Shown: piece after piece, positions 2,572 through 11,002 of the stretch
Layout: every line of letters begins with the position of its first letter
How positions within the stretch are numbered: the first letter of the stretch is position 1
Origin: Helicobacteraceae bacterium
Lineage (GTDB): Bacteria; Campylobacterota; Campylobacteria; Campylobacterales; Sulfurimonadaceae
Length of the DNA: 44,574 nt
Assembly (NCBI GenBank): GCA_027066325.1
Contig: JAMONY010000023.1
Location: forward strand, 1 to 44,574
Direction of reading: 5' to 3'
Position numbers and translations under genes: made by a program
The notes under the pieces: model-generated
Database searches by the model: none
Told to the model about the DNA's origin: nothing
The model's input: the letters and a program-made list of their open reading frames with translations, nothing else

Positions 2572-3157
2572 TGTAGAGCTTGGGCTTATACTTTGTAAAC
2601 ATTGCAATCTGCTAAACAGCAATCAGCTTCATAGATGTAGAAGATGTAACTCCATACTTGAGCAGCGTATACCACACTCTATGCTTAAGACAGCTCTCTA
2701 TCTTTTTGCAAGTTTAATTTTTCTTATACCAGCCAATCTGTTGCCGATCATGGTAGTTTATGAGCTAGGAGTTGCTAAGCCAAGTACCATTATAGGTGGT
2801 TTTATCCATTTTATGCAGAGCGGCTCATACTCAGTTGCTATCATCATCTTTGTGGCAAGTGTGCTTGTACCTATCTTAAAAATTTGTGTTGTTGCTTATG
2901 CTCTAATGGTAGCTAGGTTTAGACTTAGAGATAGAGCCATGGGTGCTTTGAAAATGTTTAGAGTAGTTAGGGCAGTTGGTAAGTGGTCGATGTTAGATGT
3001 ATTTGTTGTGGCGTTTATGGTATCGATGGTGCAGTTTGAGATAGTATCATCCATAGTTGCAGGACCAGCAGCTCTTGCATTTTTGCTAGCAGTCATTGCT
3101 ATGATGCTAGCTACAAAGAGCTTCGATACAAGATTGATGTTTGATAAGACTACTTGA
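2561..3157 (+). CDS. PqiA-domain membrane protein (second half-PqiA)
   Basis: A 198-residue partner of the preceding gene, overlapping it by 11 nt. It has its own CKHC...CRRC zinc-ribbon-like pair (about residues 12-30), four hydrophobic segments and the family motif KWSMLDVFVVAFMVSMVQ. Together the two genes amount to one full PqiA. The role is inferred from family knowledge: an inner-membrane component of an MCE-type lipid transport or envelope-stress system. The stop lies inside the 3' end of the convergent purE gene (8-bp overlap), leaving no room for a terminator between them. Confidence 0.85.
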   Translation: MRSDVELGLILCKHCNLLNSNQLHRCRRCNSILEQRIPHSMLKTALYLFASLIFLIPANLLPIMVVYELGVAKPSTIIGGFIHFMQSGSYSVAIIIFVASVLVPILKICVVAYALMVARFRLRDRAMGALKMFRVVRAVGKWSMLDVFVVAFMVSMVQFEIVSSIVAGPAALAFLLAVIAMMLATKSFDTRLMFDKTT

Positions 3158-3647
3158 TTAGTGTCTCAATCTCCATAGAGTCCATCTCAACTTTTTTCGC
3201 TTTTGCAATACGATCTTCTTTTAGTTTTGTATGAAGATTTTCATCATCAAGAGCTAGTATCTGCATGGCAAGGTAAGCAGAGTTGATAGCTCCTGCTTTG
3301 CCGATAGCAACAGTAGCAACAGGCATACCAGCTGGCATCTGAACAGTTGATAGTAGTGCATCTATACCACTAAGAGCAGAGGCGCTCATAGGCACTCCTA
3401 TGATAGGTCTAACTGTTTTAGATGAGAGCACACCTGCTAGGTGAGCCGCCATACCAGCAGCACCTACAAATACTTTAGCTCCACGCGCTTCAGCACTCTT
3501 AACATACTCTGCTGTGCGCTCAGGTGAACGGTGAGCCGAAGAGATTACTAGCTCATACTGAACTCCAAAAGTCTCAAGTGTATCTGCACAAGACTTCATA
3601 ACATCAAAATCACTTTTAGAACCGATAATAATCGAAACAAATTTCAT
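3150..3647 (-). CDS. purE: N5-carboxyaminoimidazole ribonucleotide mutase PurE
   Basis: A 165-residue class I PurE, the normal length. It moves the carboxylate of N5-CAIR to C4 to give CAIR in purine synthesis. Signature motifs are IIGSKSDFDVM at the N-terminus (phosphate site), SSAHRSPERT with the catalytic His, and GAAGMAAHLAGVLSS. The gene has its own TATAAT and an AAGGA ribosome site ahead of the ATG, so it is probably transcribed apart from the U32/glcD genes upstream. PurK, which makes its substrate, is not in the window. Its last 8 bp overlap the convergent PqiA gene. Confidence 0.95.
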   Translation of the reverse strand: MKFVSIIIGSKSDFDVMKSCADTLETFGVQYELVISSAHRSPERTAEYVKSAEARGAKVFVGAAGMAAHLAGVLSSKTVRPIIGVPMSASALSGIDALLSTVQMPAGMPVATVAIGKAGAINSAYLAMQILALDDENLHTKLKEDRIAKAKKVEMDSMEIETLIK

Positions 3648-6454: not shown

Positions 6455-7159
6455 TTATCTCTCTATTAGGCTTTTATAGTACGGTTCATACTCTTTTAAT
6501 CCGCTACCACCAAAGCTAAACAATCCCTCATCAATCTTCCCTATCCTGTGAAAAAATGGCAGATCAGTGTCCGTATAGCTAGCTCCAACCTTAGTGGTAT
6601 GTAATGTCGTAAAAGTATGACAATCAAGAGTATATAGCGTATCGCTAAGGTAGATATAGAGCAGACCAATTACATATTTTTCACAAAGTTCTTTAAAGTC
6701 TGATAGTTCTGGTGTGGAGTGACTCTGGTACGATAGGTAGGTAGCAAGCAGATCTGGATGCACCCAGTATGTGTCTGTAATGTTTGATGTGATTTTGTTA
6801 TAGATATCATAGTTTGGAGCTATCAGCATAGCACGCATGTAGTCTGGTGCCAATAGTAGCTCATCTGAACTCTCTGCTCTATCGACTATCTTAGGTAGTG
6901 AATCTTGCTGTAGTGTATCAAACGGACTCAACGCTAAGGTGCTTATGTTAGTTGTGTCATTGTAGTCTAGCACAACCGCTCTAGCCACAATGGCACTGTA
7001 TGCAGGTGAGTAGTGCTTGATGATAAAAGCTGTTATGCCCCTCTCTATCTTTGGAGTGATAGCTGTTGCGGTAGTGTAATCATCTGAGACGCTCTTTAAG
7101 ATAAGCTGCTGTGCAGTAAGAGCTGTATGTATGAGTATCAGTGCTATTAAGAGTCTCAA
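6455..7159 (-). CDS. Exported PgbA/PgbB-like protein (plasminogen-binding N-terminal domain)
   Basis: A 234-residue protein with an N-terminal signal peptide (hydrophobic to about residue 16, Ala-x-Ala-like end). Conserved segments such as LSPFDTLQQDSLPKI, RAMLIAPNYDIY and YWVHPDLLATYLS match the N-terminal domain of H. pylori PgbA (HP0508) and PgbB. The H. pylori proteins have a Lys-rich C-terminal tail that binds plasminogen; this protein lacks such a tail, so plasminogen binding is unlikely to be its ancestral job. It lies 3 nt upstream of glcD and divergent from a csd3-type peptidase, the same neighbourhood as in H. pylori, which suggests an envelope role. The start is TTG after an AAGGA site. 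Confidence 0.8.
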   Translation of the reverse strand: MRLLIALILIHTALTAQQLILKSVSDDYTTATAITPKIERGITAFIIKHYSPAYSAIVARAVVLDYNDTTNISTLALSPFDTLQQDSLPKIVDRAESSDELLLAPDYMRAMLIAPNYDIYNKITSNITDTYWVHPDLLATYLSYQSHSTPELSDFKELCEKYVIGLLYIYLSDTLYTLDCHTFTTLHTTKVGASYTDTDLPFFHRIGKIDEGLFSFGGSGLKEYEPYYKSLIER

Positions 7160-7255: not shown

Positions 7256-8449
7256 ATGCGCATTTTATTGCTGTTGACACTACTGATTTTGACACTACAA
7301 GCCGCCTCTTATGAGAAACATCGATGGAGCAGTGGAGAGGTCTATTTGGAGTTTTTAGAGCGTCTTAATCTACCATCTACGCTCTACTATAATATAGACA
7401 AAGAGGATCAGACTTTAACTGAAGAGATTAGAAGTGGCATACCTTATGAGTTGCTAAGAGATGATAGTGGGGCTGTATTGCAAGCTCTTATACCAATCTC
7501 AGATGAGCTCCAGTTTCATATCTACTTGGACGAGAGTGGTGAGTATCAGTTTAAGACTATACCTATAATATACAAAACAAGAGAGGAGTCTATCTCACTG
7601 AAGATTGAGAGCTCTCCATATAATGACATAGTAAAAAAGAGTGGTTCAAGAGAGTTAGCACACATATTTGCAGCCGCTTTTCAAAACTCATTAAACTTTA
7701 AAAGTGACCTTAGAAAAGGTGATCAGTTGGTGATGATCTATGAGCAGAAATATAGATTGGGCAAGAGGTACTCTTCACCAAAACTCTTAGCAGCTATGAT
7801 AGAGATGCGCAATAAAAAACATTATATCTACTTAGCAGAGGACGAGCGCTACTATAATGAAAAAGGGGTTCAAGCTGAGAGCTTTTTGCTAGCTAGACCG
7901 ATTAGAAATGCAAGAGTTAGCTCTGGATTTTCAAAACGACGATATCACCCTGTTTTAAAACGCTACCGCCCACACCTTGGTGTAGACTATGCTGCTCCTA
8001 GAGGAACACCAATCTTAGCAGCTGGTAAAGGAGTTGTGATCTTTGCAGGAAGAACTAGAGGCTATGGCAAACTTATAAAGATACGACACTCAGATGGCTA
8101 TGTGACACTATATGCTCATCAGAAGTCATTTAGACGCGGCATAAAAAGGGGTAAAAAGGTTAAAAAGGGTCAAGTGATAGGGTATGTAGGAACTACAGGA
8201 TTATCAACCGGACCACATCTGCATTTTGGACTATATAAAAATGGCAAAGCTATCAATCCAGCAAGAGTTGTTAAGATTACCAATAAGAGATTAAAAGGCT
8301 CTAGTAAAGTGGCATTTATGAAACATAAAAAGAGGCTAGATAGAGAGATAAAGTCTATACTAGATGCTCCAGAGCAACAGCGTCATCTACTAGCAGAGAT
8401 CAATAGTAGTTGCAATATTCAAAGAGGCAGAAGAGATGAAACATTTTAG
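7256..8449 (+). CDS. csd3: Exported M23 peptidoglycan endopeptidase, Csd3/HdpA-like
   Basis: A 397-residue LytM/M23 metallopeptidase with an N-terminal signal peptide (about 18 residues). The Zn-site motifs are HLGVDYAA (first His and Asp) and HLHFG (last His pair), with YAH between them, all in the last third. The long N-terminal part resembles H. pylori Csd3/HdpA and Campylobacter Pgp3, which cut D-Ala-mDAP crosslinks and the terminal D-Ala and set helical cell shape. Divergent from a pgb-like gene as in H. pylori (HP0506/HP0508). A GGAG 8 nt ahead supports the ATG. The 3' end overlaps mgtE by 14 nt, an unusual coupling of wall remodelling and magnesium uptake genes. Confidence 0.88.
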   Translation: MRILLLLTLLILTLQAASYEKHRWSSGEVYLEFLERLNLPSTLYYNIDKEDQTLTEEIRSGIPYELLRDDSGAVLQALIPISDELQFHIYLDESGEYQFKTIPIIYKTREESISLKIESSPYNDIVKKSGSRELAHIFAAAFQNSLNFKSDLRKGDQLVMIYEQKYRLGKRYSSPKLLAAMIEMRNKKHYIYLAEDERYYNEKGVQAESFLLARPIRNARVSSGFSKRRYHPVLKRYRPHLGVDYAAPRGTPILAAGKGVVIFAGRTRGYGKLIKIRHSDGYVTLYAHQKSFRRGIKRGKKVKKGQVIGYVGTTGLSTGPHLHFGLYKNGKAINPARVVKITNKRLKGSSKVAFMKHKKRLDREIKSILDAPEQQRHLLAEINSSCNIQRGRRDETF

Positions 8450-9782
8450 CGAAATTAAACACCTATTTGATCAATTTTTACAAGGCAAAACAGAGCAGCT
8501 ACCACACGCTAGTGAGATAGCATATCTTCTTAAACATGTCTATCGTGATACTCCAGAAGAGTTTTTAGAACTTTTAAATAAAATACCCCAAGATGTTCGT
8601 GGAGACCTGCTACTAAATCTACCCGAAAAGCTAAAAGATGAGGCGATAGAGTACTACTCTACAGATGAGTTAACTGAAGCTGTTGAGTCACTACAATCAG
8701 ATGATGCTACTGAGCTCATAGATGATATTGAAGATGTTGATGAGGGTGTAGCTGAGGCTGTTTATGAGCAGCTAGATATTGAAGATCGTGAAGATATTGA
8801 TAAGATTAGAAGCTATGATGAGGACCAAGCTGGCTCATGGATGCAGACAGAGCTATTTGATGCAACTCTAGACGAGACTCTACAAGAGGCTATAGATCGA
8901 CTCAAGCTACTAAAAGATGTAGGTGAACTTGAGAATATCTATCAGTTGTATATAGTCAATGATGAGAGAAGATTGGTGGCTACTATTGCTCTTGAAGATC
9001 TTATATTGATGGATTTTAATCAAACTTTTCGCCAACAGTTGGGCAACAAAGAGTTTAGGGCAGTGAAAACAACAGATGATATTGATGATGTAGCGTCTAT
9101 ATTTGAGCAGTATGATGCATCTGTATTGCCTGTGCTAGATCATGAGAGCAGGCTAGTTGGTCGTATAACATCAGATGATATTTATGATGTTATTGAAGAG
9201 CGTGCAACTGAACAGATCTACAATCTAGCTGGTGTAAATGATGATGTAGAGCAAGATGAAGATATAAGGGCAATTTTTAAGACAAGGTCTAGCTGGCTAG
9301 CACTCAATCTGTTAACAGCCATACTAGCATCGATGGTTATAGCGGTATTTGATGAGACTTTAGCAGCATTTATCCCACTTGCTATACTGATGCCAATAGT
9401 AGCCTCCATGGGTGGCAATGCAGGAACACAGACACTAACGGTTATGGTGCGAAAGATGGCACTTGGCGACATAGACTTTGCAAATGCCAAGAGTGCACTT
9501 TACAAAGAGATGAGTGTCGCTCTGCTTAATGGTATGCTCTTTGCTGTTATCATGGGTATTATAGCTTGGATCTGGTTTTCTGAGCCACTACTTGGCGTGG
9601 TTATAGCGCTAGCTATGGTGATCAACCTTCTTGTGGCTGGACTATTTGGAGCAGCCATACCTCTACTGTTAAAGCGCCTAAATACCGATCCAGCTGTAGG
9701 GTCTACGGTGCTGCTTACAACAGTTACCGATGTCTTTGGATTTTTTAGTTTTCTGCTTCTTGCAAAGGTGATCTTGTTATGA
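8436..9782 (+). CDS. mgtE: Magnesium transporter MgtE
   Basis: A 448-residue Mg2+ channel/transporter of usual length. An acidic N-domain (about 1-125) and two CBS repeats (about 126-250) form the cytoplasmic Mg2+ sensor that closes the channel when Mg2+ is high. Five membrane helices follow; the pore signature MGGNAGTQTLTV and the pore Asp in TTVTDVFGFF are both intact. The gene starts inside csd3 and is followed, with an ATGA overlap, by a 31-codon ORF. Confidence 0.95.
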   Translation: MKHFSEIKHLFDQFLQGKTEQLPHASEIAYLLKHVYRDTPEEFLELLNKIPQDVRGDLLLNLPEKLKDEAIEYYSTDELTEAVESLQSDDATELIDDIEDVDEGVAEAVYEQLDIEDREDIDKIRSYDEDQAGSWMQTELFDATLDETLQEAIDRLKLLKDVGELENIYQLYIVNDERRLVATIALEDLILMDFNQTFRQQLGNKEFRAVKTTDDIDDVASIFEQYDASVLPVLDHESRLVGRITSDDIYDVIEERATEQIYNLAGVNDDVEQDEDIRAIFKTRSSWLALNLLTAILASMVIAVFDETLAAFIPLAILMPIVASMGGNAGTQTLTVMVRKMALGDIDFANAKSALYKEMSVALLNGMLFAVIMGIIAWIWFSEPLLGVVIALAMVINLLVAGLFGAAIPLLLKRLNTDPAVGSTVLLTTVTDVFGFFSFLLLAKVILL

Positions 9783-9874
9783 AAAATCTTATCAAAATAG
9801 CCACTATAGTTCTGCTTTTAGCTGGCTCTGGCTATCTGCTGTTTAGCGGTTTTAACATACTTTTTAACACTTAA
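9779..9874 (+). CDS. 31-residue single-helix membrane protein coupled to mgtE
   Basis: A very short ORF whose ATG overlaps the mgtE stop (ATGA). It is preceded by AAAGGTG about 8 nt upstream, a good ribosome site inside mgtE. The product has Met-Lys-Asn-Leu-Ile-Lys, then an uninterrupted hydrophobic helix of about 20 residues, and a short polar tail; it ends in TAA two bases before the convergent neighbour. Nothing identifies it by sequence. Its size, topology and coupling suggest a small accessory subunit of MgtE; E. coli MgtS, also 31 residues, stabilises another Mg2+ transporter, but that is an analogy only. It could also be a chance ORF. Confidence 0.5.
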   Translation: MKNLIKIATIVLLLAGSGYLLFSGFNILFNT

Positions 9875-9876
9875 AC

Positions 9877-10407
9877 TTAACTGTTTGAGTCTGACTTTTT
9901 ATCGATAAGATTGTTTAGTAAAAACATGTACATCTCTTTAGATTTTACATCCTCTTCGATCGCCTTCATGTATAGATCAGACACTCTATCTGCATATGTT
10001 TTATAAGCAAAGTGCGGGAAGTGATTTTTCCAAGCTATCTCAACTCTTTGGCGTGCTACACGCTCTATGAGCCACTCTTTAAACATCATGTAAGTGCCAA
10101 AAAACATACCTGTAAAAATGATTGCTAGAAAGATTAGTAGATGACAATCAATCTGTGCTAACTCTTTGTGAAATAGAAAGCTTATGGGTAGTAAGATAAT
10201 GTTCCATATGGTTAAAAATGCTAAGATCATCTTGCCGATACTAAGTCTTACACCAGGTATGCGACCCTCTAGTTTGAGACCTAGTTTGTGTGATCTATTG
10301 AGCTCTAATAGCTCCTTGAGGCGCAAGGGCTGATCTGAGACCCTAAAGACAAATGGGGTAATGGTACGATCTGTAATCTTGTTAAAATATGTAGATAAAC
10401 TGCTCAT
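9877..10407 (-). CDS. Unknown two-helix inner-membrane protein
   Basis: A 176-residue protein with no family I recognise. Residues 1-55 are polar and basic, two hydrophobic helices span about 58-80 and 87-110, and the C-terminal third is a charged amphipathic region ending in a Lys/Asp/Ser-rich tail. Both termini are predicted cytoplasmic. The gene stands alone, convergent with the mgtE genes (2-nt gap), with its own TACAAT at 10456-10461 and an AAGGCG ribosome site. It is a complete frame with the same codon style as its neighbours, so it is very probably real. Confidence 0.75.
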   Translation of the reverse strand: MSSLSTYFNKITDRTITPFVFRVSDQPLRLKELLELNRSHKLGLKLEGRIPGVRLSIGKMILAFLTIWNIILLPISFLFHKELAQIDCHLLIFLAIIFTGMFFGTYMMFKEWLIERVARQRVEIAWKNHFPHFAYKTYADRVSDLYMKAIEEDVKSKEMYMFLLNNLIDKKSDSNS

Positions 10408-10642: not shown

Positions 10643-11002
10643 ATGACACTAAGTAGATATATAAACAGCGAGATAAATATGTTAAAACCAATTATAGAAC
10701 GATTAAATAGTAAGTCGCTGATCTATAAAAAGCTTGTAGAAGTTGCTCCAAAAGATCTTGGTATACGCAATCGTATAAGAATATTTTGCGCAACCGATCC
10801 AAAGGGGTACTATAGTGCAATATTTATAATAGACCAGAAGAGTCGAGTGTTGGTTAAAGATATAGAGAAGTTTGAGCAGATACTACAAAAGCTAAAACTC
10901 TATAGTGACCACTCATTTAAGTATAAACTACTTATGTTAGATGCTCCGATCTGCTCAAAAGCGTTGAGTGGACTTAAAAGTTTGGGGTGGAAGGTTATAT
11001 AG
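10643..11002 (+). CDS. Unknown small protein at head of the coaX operon
   Basis: A 119-residue soluble, basic protein of unknown family. It is predicted mixed alpha/beta; the central FCATDPKGYYSAIFIIDQKS and the end L-M-L-D-A-P-I-C-S-K-A are the most structured-looking parts, and there are two Cys. No signal peptide or membrane helix. An internal ATG at 10679 is an alternative start. It abuts coaX directly (its stop TAG is followed by the coaX TTG), so the two are probably co-translated. The family may be a Campylobacterota-specific protein; I cannot name a function. Confidence 0.7.
   Translation: MTLSRYINSEINMLKPIIERLNSKSLIYKKLVEVAPKDLGIRNRIRIFCATDPKGYYSAIFIIDQKSRVLVKDIEKFEQILQKLKLYSDHSFKYKLLMLDAPICSKALSGLKSLGWKVI

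Follow-up and report, generated by a model that had tools for sequence, protein, structure and literature searches.

Single-helix membrane microproteins usually pack against a larger integral membrane partner, and MgtS acts on MgtA. The small respiratory-oxidase subunit CydX is described with the motif YxxWxxG, in which the tryptophan lies at the helix start (PMC4325964). For leaderless genes of Epsilonproteobacteria, a TAnAaT box just 5′ of the ATG is described in PMC3847290, in a comparison whose starting set was 23 leaderless genes of C. jejuni or H. pylori; the same source describes conversion between the leaderless and the leadered state through cistron fusion, the gene being SD-bearing when joined to an upstream gene.

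The window analysed here, i.e. the whole stretch of 44,574 nucleotides of contig JAMONY010000023.1 from a Helicobacteraceae bacterium (GCA_027066325.1; Sulfurimonadaceae in GTDB), contains a reading frame of 31 codons plus TAA at 9779–9874 (plus strand), the product of which is MKNLIKIATIVLLLAGSGYLLFSGFNILFNT, with the conserved residues S17, G24 and L28. Its start lies over the stop of mgtE (8436–9782, plus strand), encoding a magnesium transporter of 448 aa (TIGR00400, 267.9 bits versus a cut-off of 232.75), and the 4 nt ATGA at 9779–9782 (plus strand) are common to both frames. A Shine–Dalgarno-like sequence, AAAGGTGA, is located at 9764–9771 (plus strand) within the final mgtE codons (Ala-Lys-Val-Ile), 7 nt 5′ of the small-ORF ATG, which is an SD distance. 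The highest 19-residue Kyte–Doolittle mean of the small protein was 2.07, corresponding to one hydrophobic helix. Frame, overlap, SD-like sequence and helix were all found as given in the original prediction, which had also taken the end of the frame 2 bases before the next gene as an argument for a real small protein. The spacing was confirmed, but the next gene (9877–10407, 176 aa) is on the minus strand and, as the two genes are convergent, the 2 bases say nothing on operon structure or co-translation. Upstream, a Csd3-like M23 peptidase (7256–8449, plus strand) overlaps mgtE by 14 nt. Beside csd3 and mgtE, a PGBA_N domain protein (plasminogen-binding protein N-terminal family, PF15436) is encoded at 6455–7159 (minus strand), and its homologues occupy the same place in relatives. 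Two ORFs right of the rearrangement point described below, 9877–10407 (minus strand) and 10643–11002 (plus strand), were without Pfam or NCBIfam match.

Homologues of the small protein were searched in 200 genomes of the bacterial family. A search with the 31-aa sequence alone as query (E ≤ 10) gave matches in 94 of the 200 genomes; the 30 top-ranking places each lay within an open frame of 37–134 aa. A profile from an alignment of 28 members (A1) matched 142 of the 200 genomes at E ≤ 0.001, with one place per genome and a single exception; a profile from a 53-member alignment (A2) matched 144 genomes at E ≤ 5.4e-11 and 148 at E ≤ 0.05, four of the latter weak. The 52 genomes without match to A2 at E ≤ 0.05 include several nearly complete ones, so that the gene is either dispensable in some lineages or diverged past detection. 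In an order-wide sample of 298 genomes, strong matches were confined to the Sulfurimonadaceae and nothing outside rose above noise, the best outside match (4.2e-4) lying inside a 378-aa frame. Named contigs matched by the profile include those of Sulfuricurvum kujiense, Sulfuricurvum sp. and Sulfurimonas sp., both genera being Sulfurimonadaceae per NCBI. When the window ORF was left out and the profile built from the other 52 members, the window frame was recovered at 39.2 bits (E = 2.2e-11); among 1135 window segments the runner-up reached 6.1 bits, and 60 shuffled windows gave 10.6 bits at most. Judged by this conservation at the sequence level, the ORF is a real, unannotated, single-copy membrane microprotein, and 9779–9874 belongs to an uncharacterised single-helix microprotein family of the Sulfurimonadaceae, with members of about 31–57 aa.

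The expectation that standard models would overlook it was borne out: neither Pfam nor NCBIfam gave a match for the window protein, as for the product of the convergent 9877–10407 ORF. Member by member, Pfam and NCBIfam yielded weak, scattered matches; NF033853 (KPN_two_small, an NCBIfam small membrane protein) matched 2 of 28 members with a best E of 8.5e-4, the window member not among them. A PDB search with the profile returned chance matches only (best E 0.15), and no naming of the family was found in the accessible parts of the open literature.

In the core codons, pN/pS was 0.24, with pN < pS in all 1007 (non-independent) pairs, by which measure the family is under purifying selection. 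Three positions are near-invariant among 133 core sequences: S/A(0) in 133, G(+7) in 127 and L(+11) in 129. On an ideal helix they lie within about 40° of one another, and for this reason they are read as a putative packing face. The family has one helix with positive residues preceding it, and the topology would be N-in/C-out. The window protein has no C-terminal tail, and the window copy may be in the process of being lost. In genus g2 (e.g. loci L092, L143 and L190), C-terminal tails are variable, yet many end VHSNTVK/VHSDAVK-like, a motif absent from the window protein. At locus L177 (genome G170; frame 2991–3608, minus strand), the small protein continues in frame to 206 aa in total, i.e. 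about 160 extra residues, behind a leader with SD-like AAAAAGGTAG; as a functional clue the fusion gave nothing, with no hit reaching the Pfam cut-off and the extra part lacking homologues among the fetched loci.

Upstream regions of 132 of 138 loci were scored for −10 boxes, 6 being dropped (the window, no ATG, or pattern missed). A TAnnnT hexamer ended 6–7 nt 5′ of the ATG in 111 of the 132 loci, a count that was lowered because in several loci the ATG taken by the script lay a few codons 3′ of the probable one. Strong −10 scores were found at spacer 6 in 52% of loci, at spacer 7 in 32%, and at any other spacer in at most 10.6%. In most relatives the small gene is predicted to be transcribed from a sigma70-type −10 box into an mRNA without leader. 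Upstream of the window ORF neither a −10 box, in particular none ending 6–7 nt before the ATG, nor the hexamer GTGTTA was present.

Gene order was compared at 137 of 142 loci; two loci were dropped, the fused L177 and L079, a wrong match in genome G009 for which L168 was taken instead, and genomes G116, G137, G165 and G186 were left out. The usual order is TonB-dependent receptor (minus), small ORF (plus), agmatine deiminase (minus), with the receptor as divergent neighbour in 109 of the 137 loci and agmatine deiminase as the first gene downstream in 93. Within the window's genus this set follows mgtE (plus), the small ORF lying about 2.4 kb beyond it. The csd3–mgtE left flank of the window is common to the genus; the right flank is not, and none of 8 relative loci used for comparison shares it. 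The window genome carries its receptor homologue on contigs C51/C78, apparently as one gene split at the contig end, and this homologue retains upstream TAACAC operator-like boxes (own genome L200, ~7950–7990), and the agmatine deiminase and alanine-racemase homologues are both on contig C19. The SD-like sequence coincides with conserved Ala-Lys-Val codons of mgtE: at loci L002 and L030, AAGGTGAT stands at the same mgtE site with no small ORF behind mgtE. ATGA at the mgtE end was found in 0 of 6 same-genus relatives (L027 and L028, in which mgtE is cut by the contig end, were left out of this comparison, and L010 was in the wrong frame). The place behind mgtE appears to be a chance result of recent rearrangement and not a sign of joint function.

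Taken as a whole, the explanation that we favour with good confidence is that of a real inner-membrane microprotein, leaderless in relatives, which was moved behind mgtE by rearrangement and acts as a helix-packing accessory. In the presumed ancestral state, the small gene would be divergent from the TonB-dependent receptor and transcribed leaderless from its own −10 box. Rearrangement would then have separated it from receptor and promoter and placed it after mgtE; there the ORF would be translated from the mgtE message through ATGA coupling, the SD-like sequence already contained in the mgtE codons being used as its ribosome signal. Translation coupled to mgtE by ATGA and SD-like sequence is most likely for the window ORF, which looks, from its sequence context, like a case of leaderless-to-leadered conversion by cistron fusion; the link to MgtE would be one of expression in this lineage and not of shared function. 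The protein is probably an accessory to a larger inner-membrane protein, against which its helix would pack through the S/A(0), G(+7), L(+11) face. No partner is named, as no neighbour is constant enough.

Among the neighbours, the receptor is the best lead to function. The microprotein might assist TonB-dependent uptake by a copper-receptor-like route and be regulated together with the divergent receptor via shared GTGTTA boxes, a reading that we hold to be unlikely. Besides the divergent receptor at most loci, it is favoured by the frequency of GTGTTA, which 98 of the 107 receptor-facing loci have within 120 nt where 5% would be expected, and by the association of the small gene's presence with that of the receptor (odds ratio 4.8, uncorrected p = 4e-5). 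Between the divergent receptor and small genes, e.g. at L097, GTGTTA stands in direct repeats that are spaced by about 11–12 bp and resemble an operator. In two genera the small ORF faces, in place of the receptor, NosL (L064, L066) or NosZ (genomes G008 and G026; L073, L131), both copper-linked. On the other hand, 16 of the 142 family genomes were without receptor at E ≤ 1e-40 and 36 genomes had the receptor alone; GTGTTA was retained in just 8 of 24 loci without receptor, and the window genome has kept the boxes next to its receptor. Moreover, the receptors scored 174–193 bits against TIGR01778 (copper; cut-off 472), far too low to establish copper specificity, and the gene order may simply be inherited. 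Slightly less probable again is the fuller version, by which the microprotein, leaderless across the Sulfurimonadaceae, serves copper import or cuproenzyme assembly at the inner membrane and has here been cut from receptor regulation and placed under the control of a cell-wall/Mg2+-transporter operon; if the copper reading were true, the window would hold a natural case of leaderless expression rewired into translational coupling. A link to N2O reductase was rejected: searches for nosZ came up empty in the window's genome, in 7 other same-genus genomes sampled and in 81 of the 142 family genomes, so that the nos neighbours of two genera are not a general feature.

A small respiratory-oxidase subunit like CydX, CydY or CioY has the same size and a single helix, and such subunits are described from Campylobacterota (PMC4325964, PMC11955535). 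This identity is nevertheless improbable for the present family: no conserved tryptophan at the helix start was found in the 53 aligned members or the 133 core sequences, and cydAB was not among the identified neighbour clusters, which comprise receptor, agmatine deiminase, alanine racemase and others, none of them cyd (singletons being only partly identified).

The original prediction had proposed a small partner of MgtE, and a dedicated partner or regulator in the manner of MgtS on MgtA would fit the ATGA overlap with its SD-like sequence, the location of mgtE within a few kb of the small ORF in several genera, and a weak tendency of the two genes to occur together (odds ratio 2.7, p = 0.003, without correction for relatedness). 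Against this, mgtE stands directly upstream of the small ORF in only 1 of 137 loci, the window's own, mgtE was undetected (E ≤ 0.001) in 31 of the 142 genomes with the family, 19 of these 31 being at least 95% complete, and 33 genomes had mgtE without the small gene. Conservation of a short ORF after mgtE in relatives, proposed at the outset as a check, held for the ORF family and failed for its position directly behind mgtE. On gene order and presence/absence, the partnership was rejected, and we give it very little credence.

A type I toxin-like peptide would likewise be short and hydrophobic and have its own promoter, as in the relatives, but is scarcely credible for a gene that is single copy per genome, mostly in the same position and kept across the family. 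A chance open frame, for which just the length of 31 codons speaks, is refuted beyond reasonable doubt by the leave-one-out search (39.2 bits versus the shuffled maximum of 10.6), the profile matches across the family and the pN/pS value.

With this family, the sulfur-oxidising Campylobacterota gain a membrane microprotein that is widely kept and unannotated, and its predicted leaderless promoter, conserved over many genera, is easy to test. In the window, loss of the promoter by rearrangement appears to have been rescued by an SD-like sequence pre-existing in the upstream gene. The case also calls for caution, as an ATGA overlap with a good SD is no proof of functional partnership.

Among known systems, MgtS and MgtR act on Mg2+ transport and resemble the present family in being about 30 aa long and hydrophobic, whereas this family is not tied to a Mg2+ transporter gene. 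Type I toxins occur in several copies with an antisense RNA; this family is single copy per genome. CydX, CydY and CioY, as described in PMC4325964 and PMC11955535, are likewise single-pass, 30–40 aa long and overlooked by annotation, but the present family is without a conserved Trp motif, has its own predicted leaderless promoter and lies outside the cyd operon as far as neighbours were identified. The leaderless genes of PMC3847290 share the box before the ATG and become SD-bearing cistrons after joining an upstream gene, as is proposed here for the window; they differ in that the small gene family is not among the genes described in the accessible parts of that paper.
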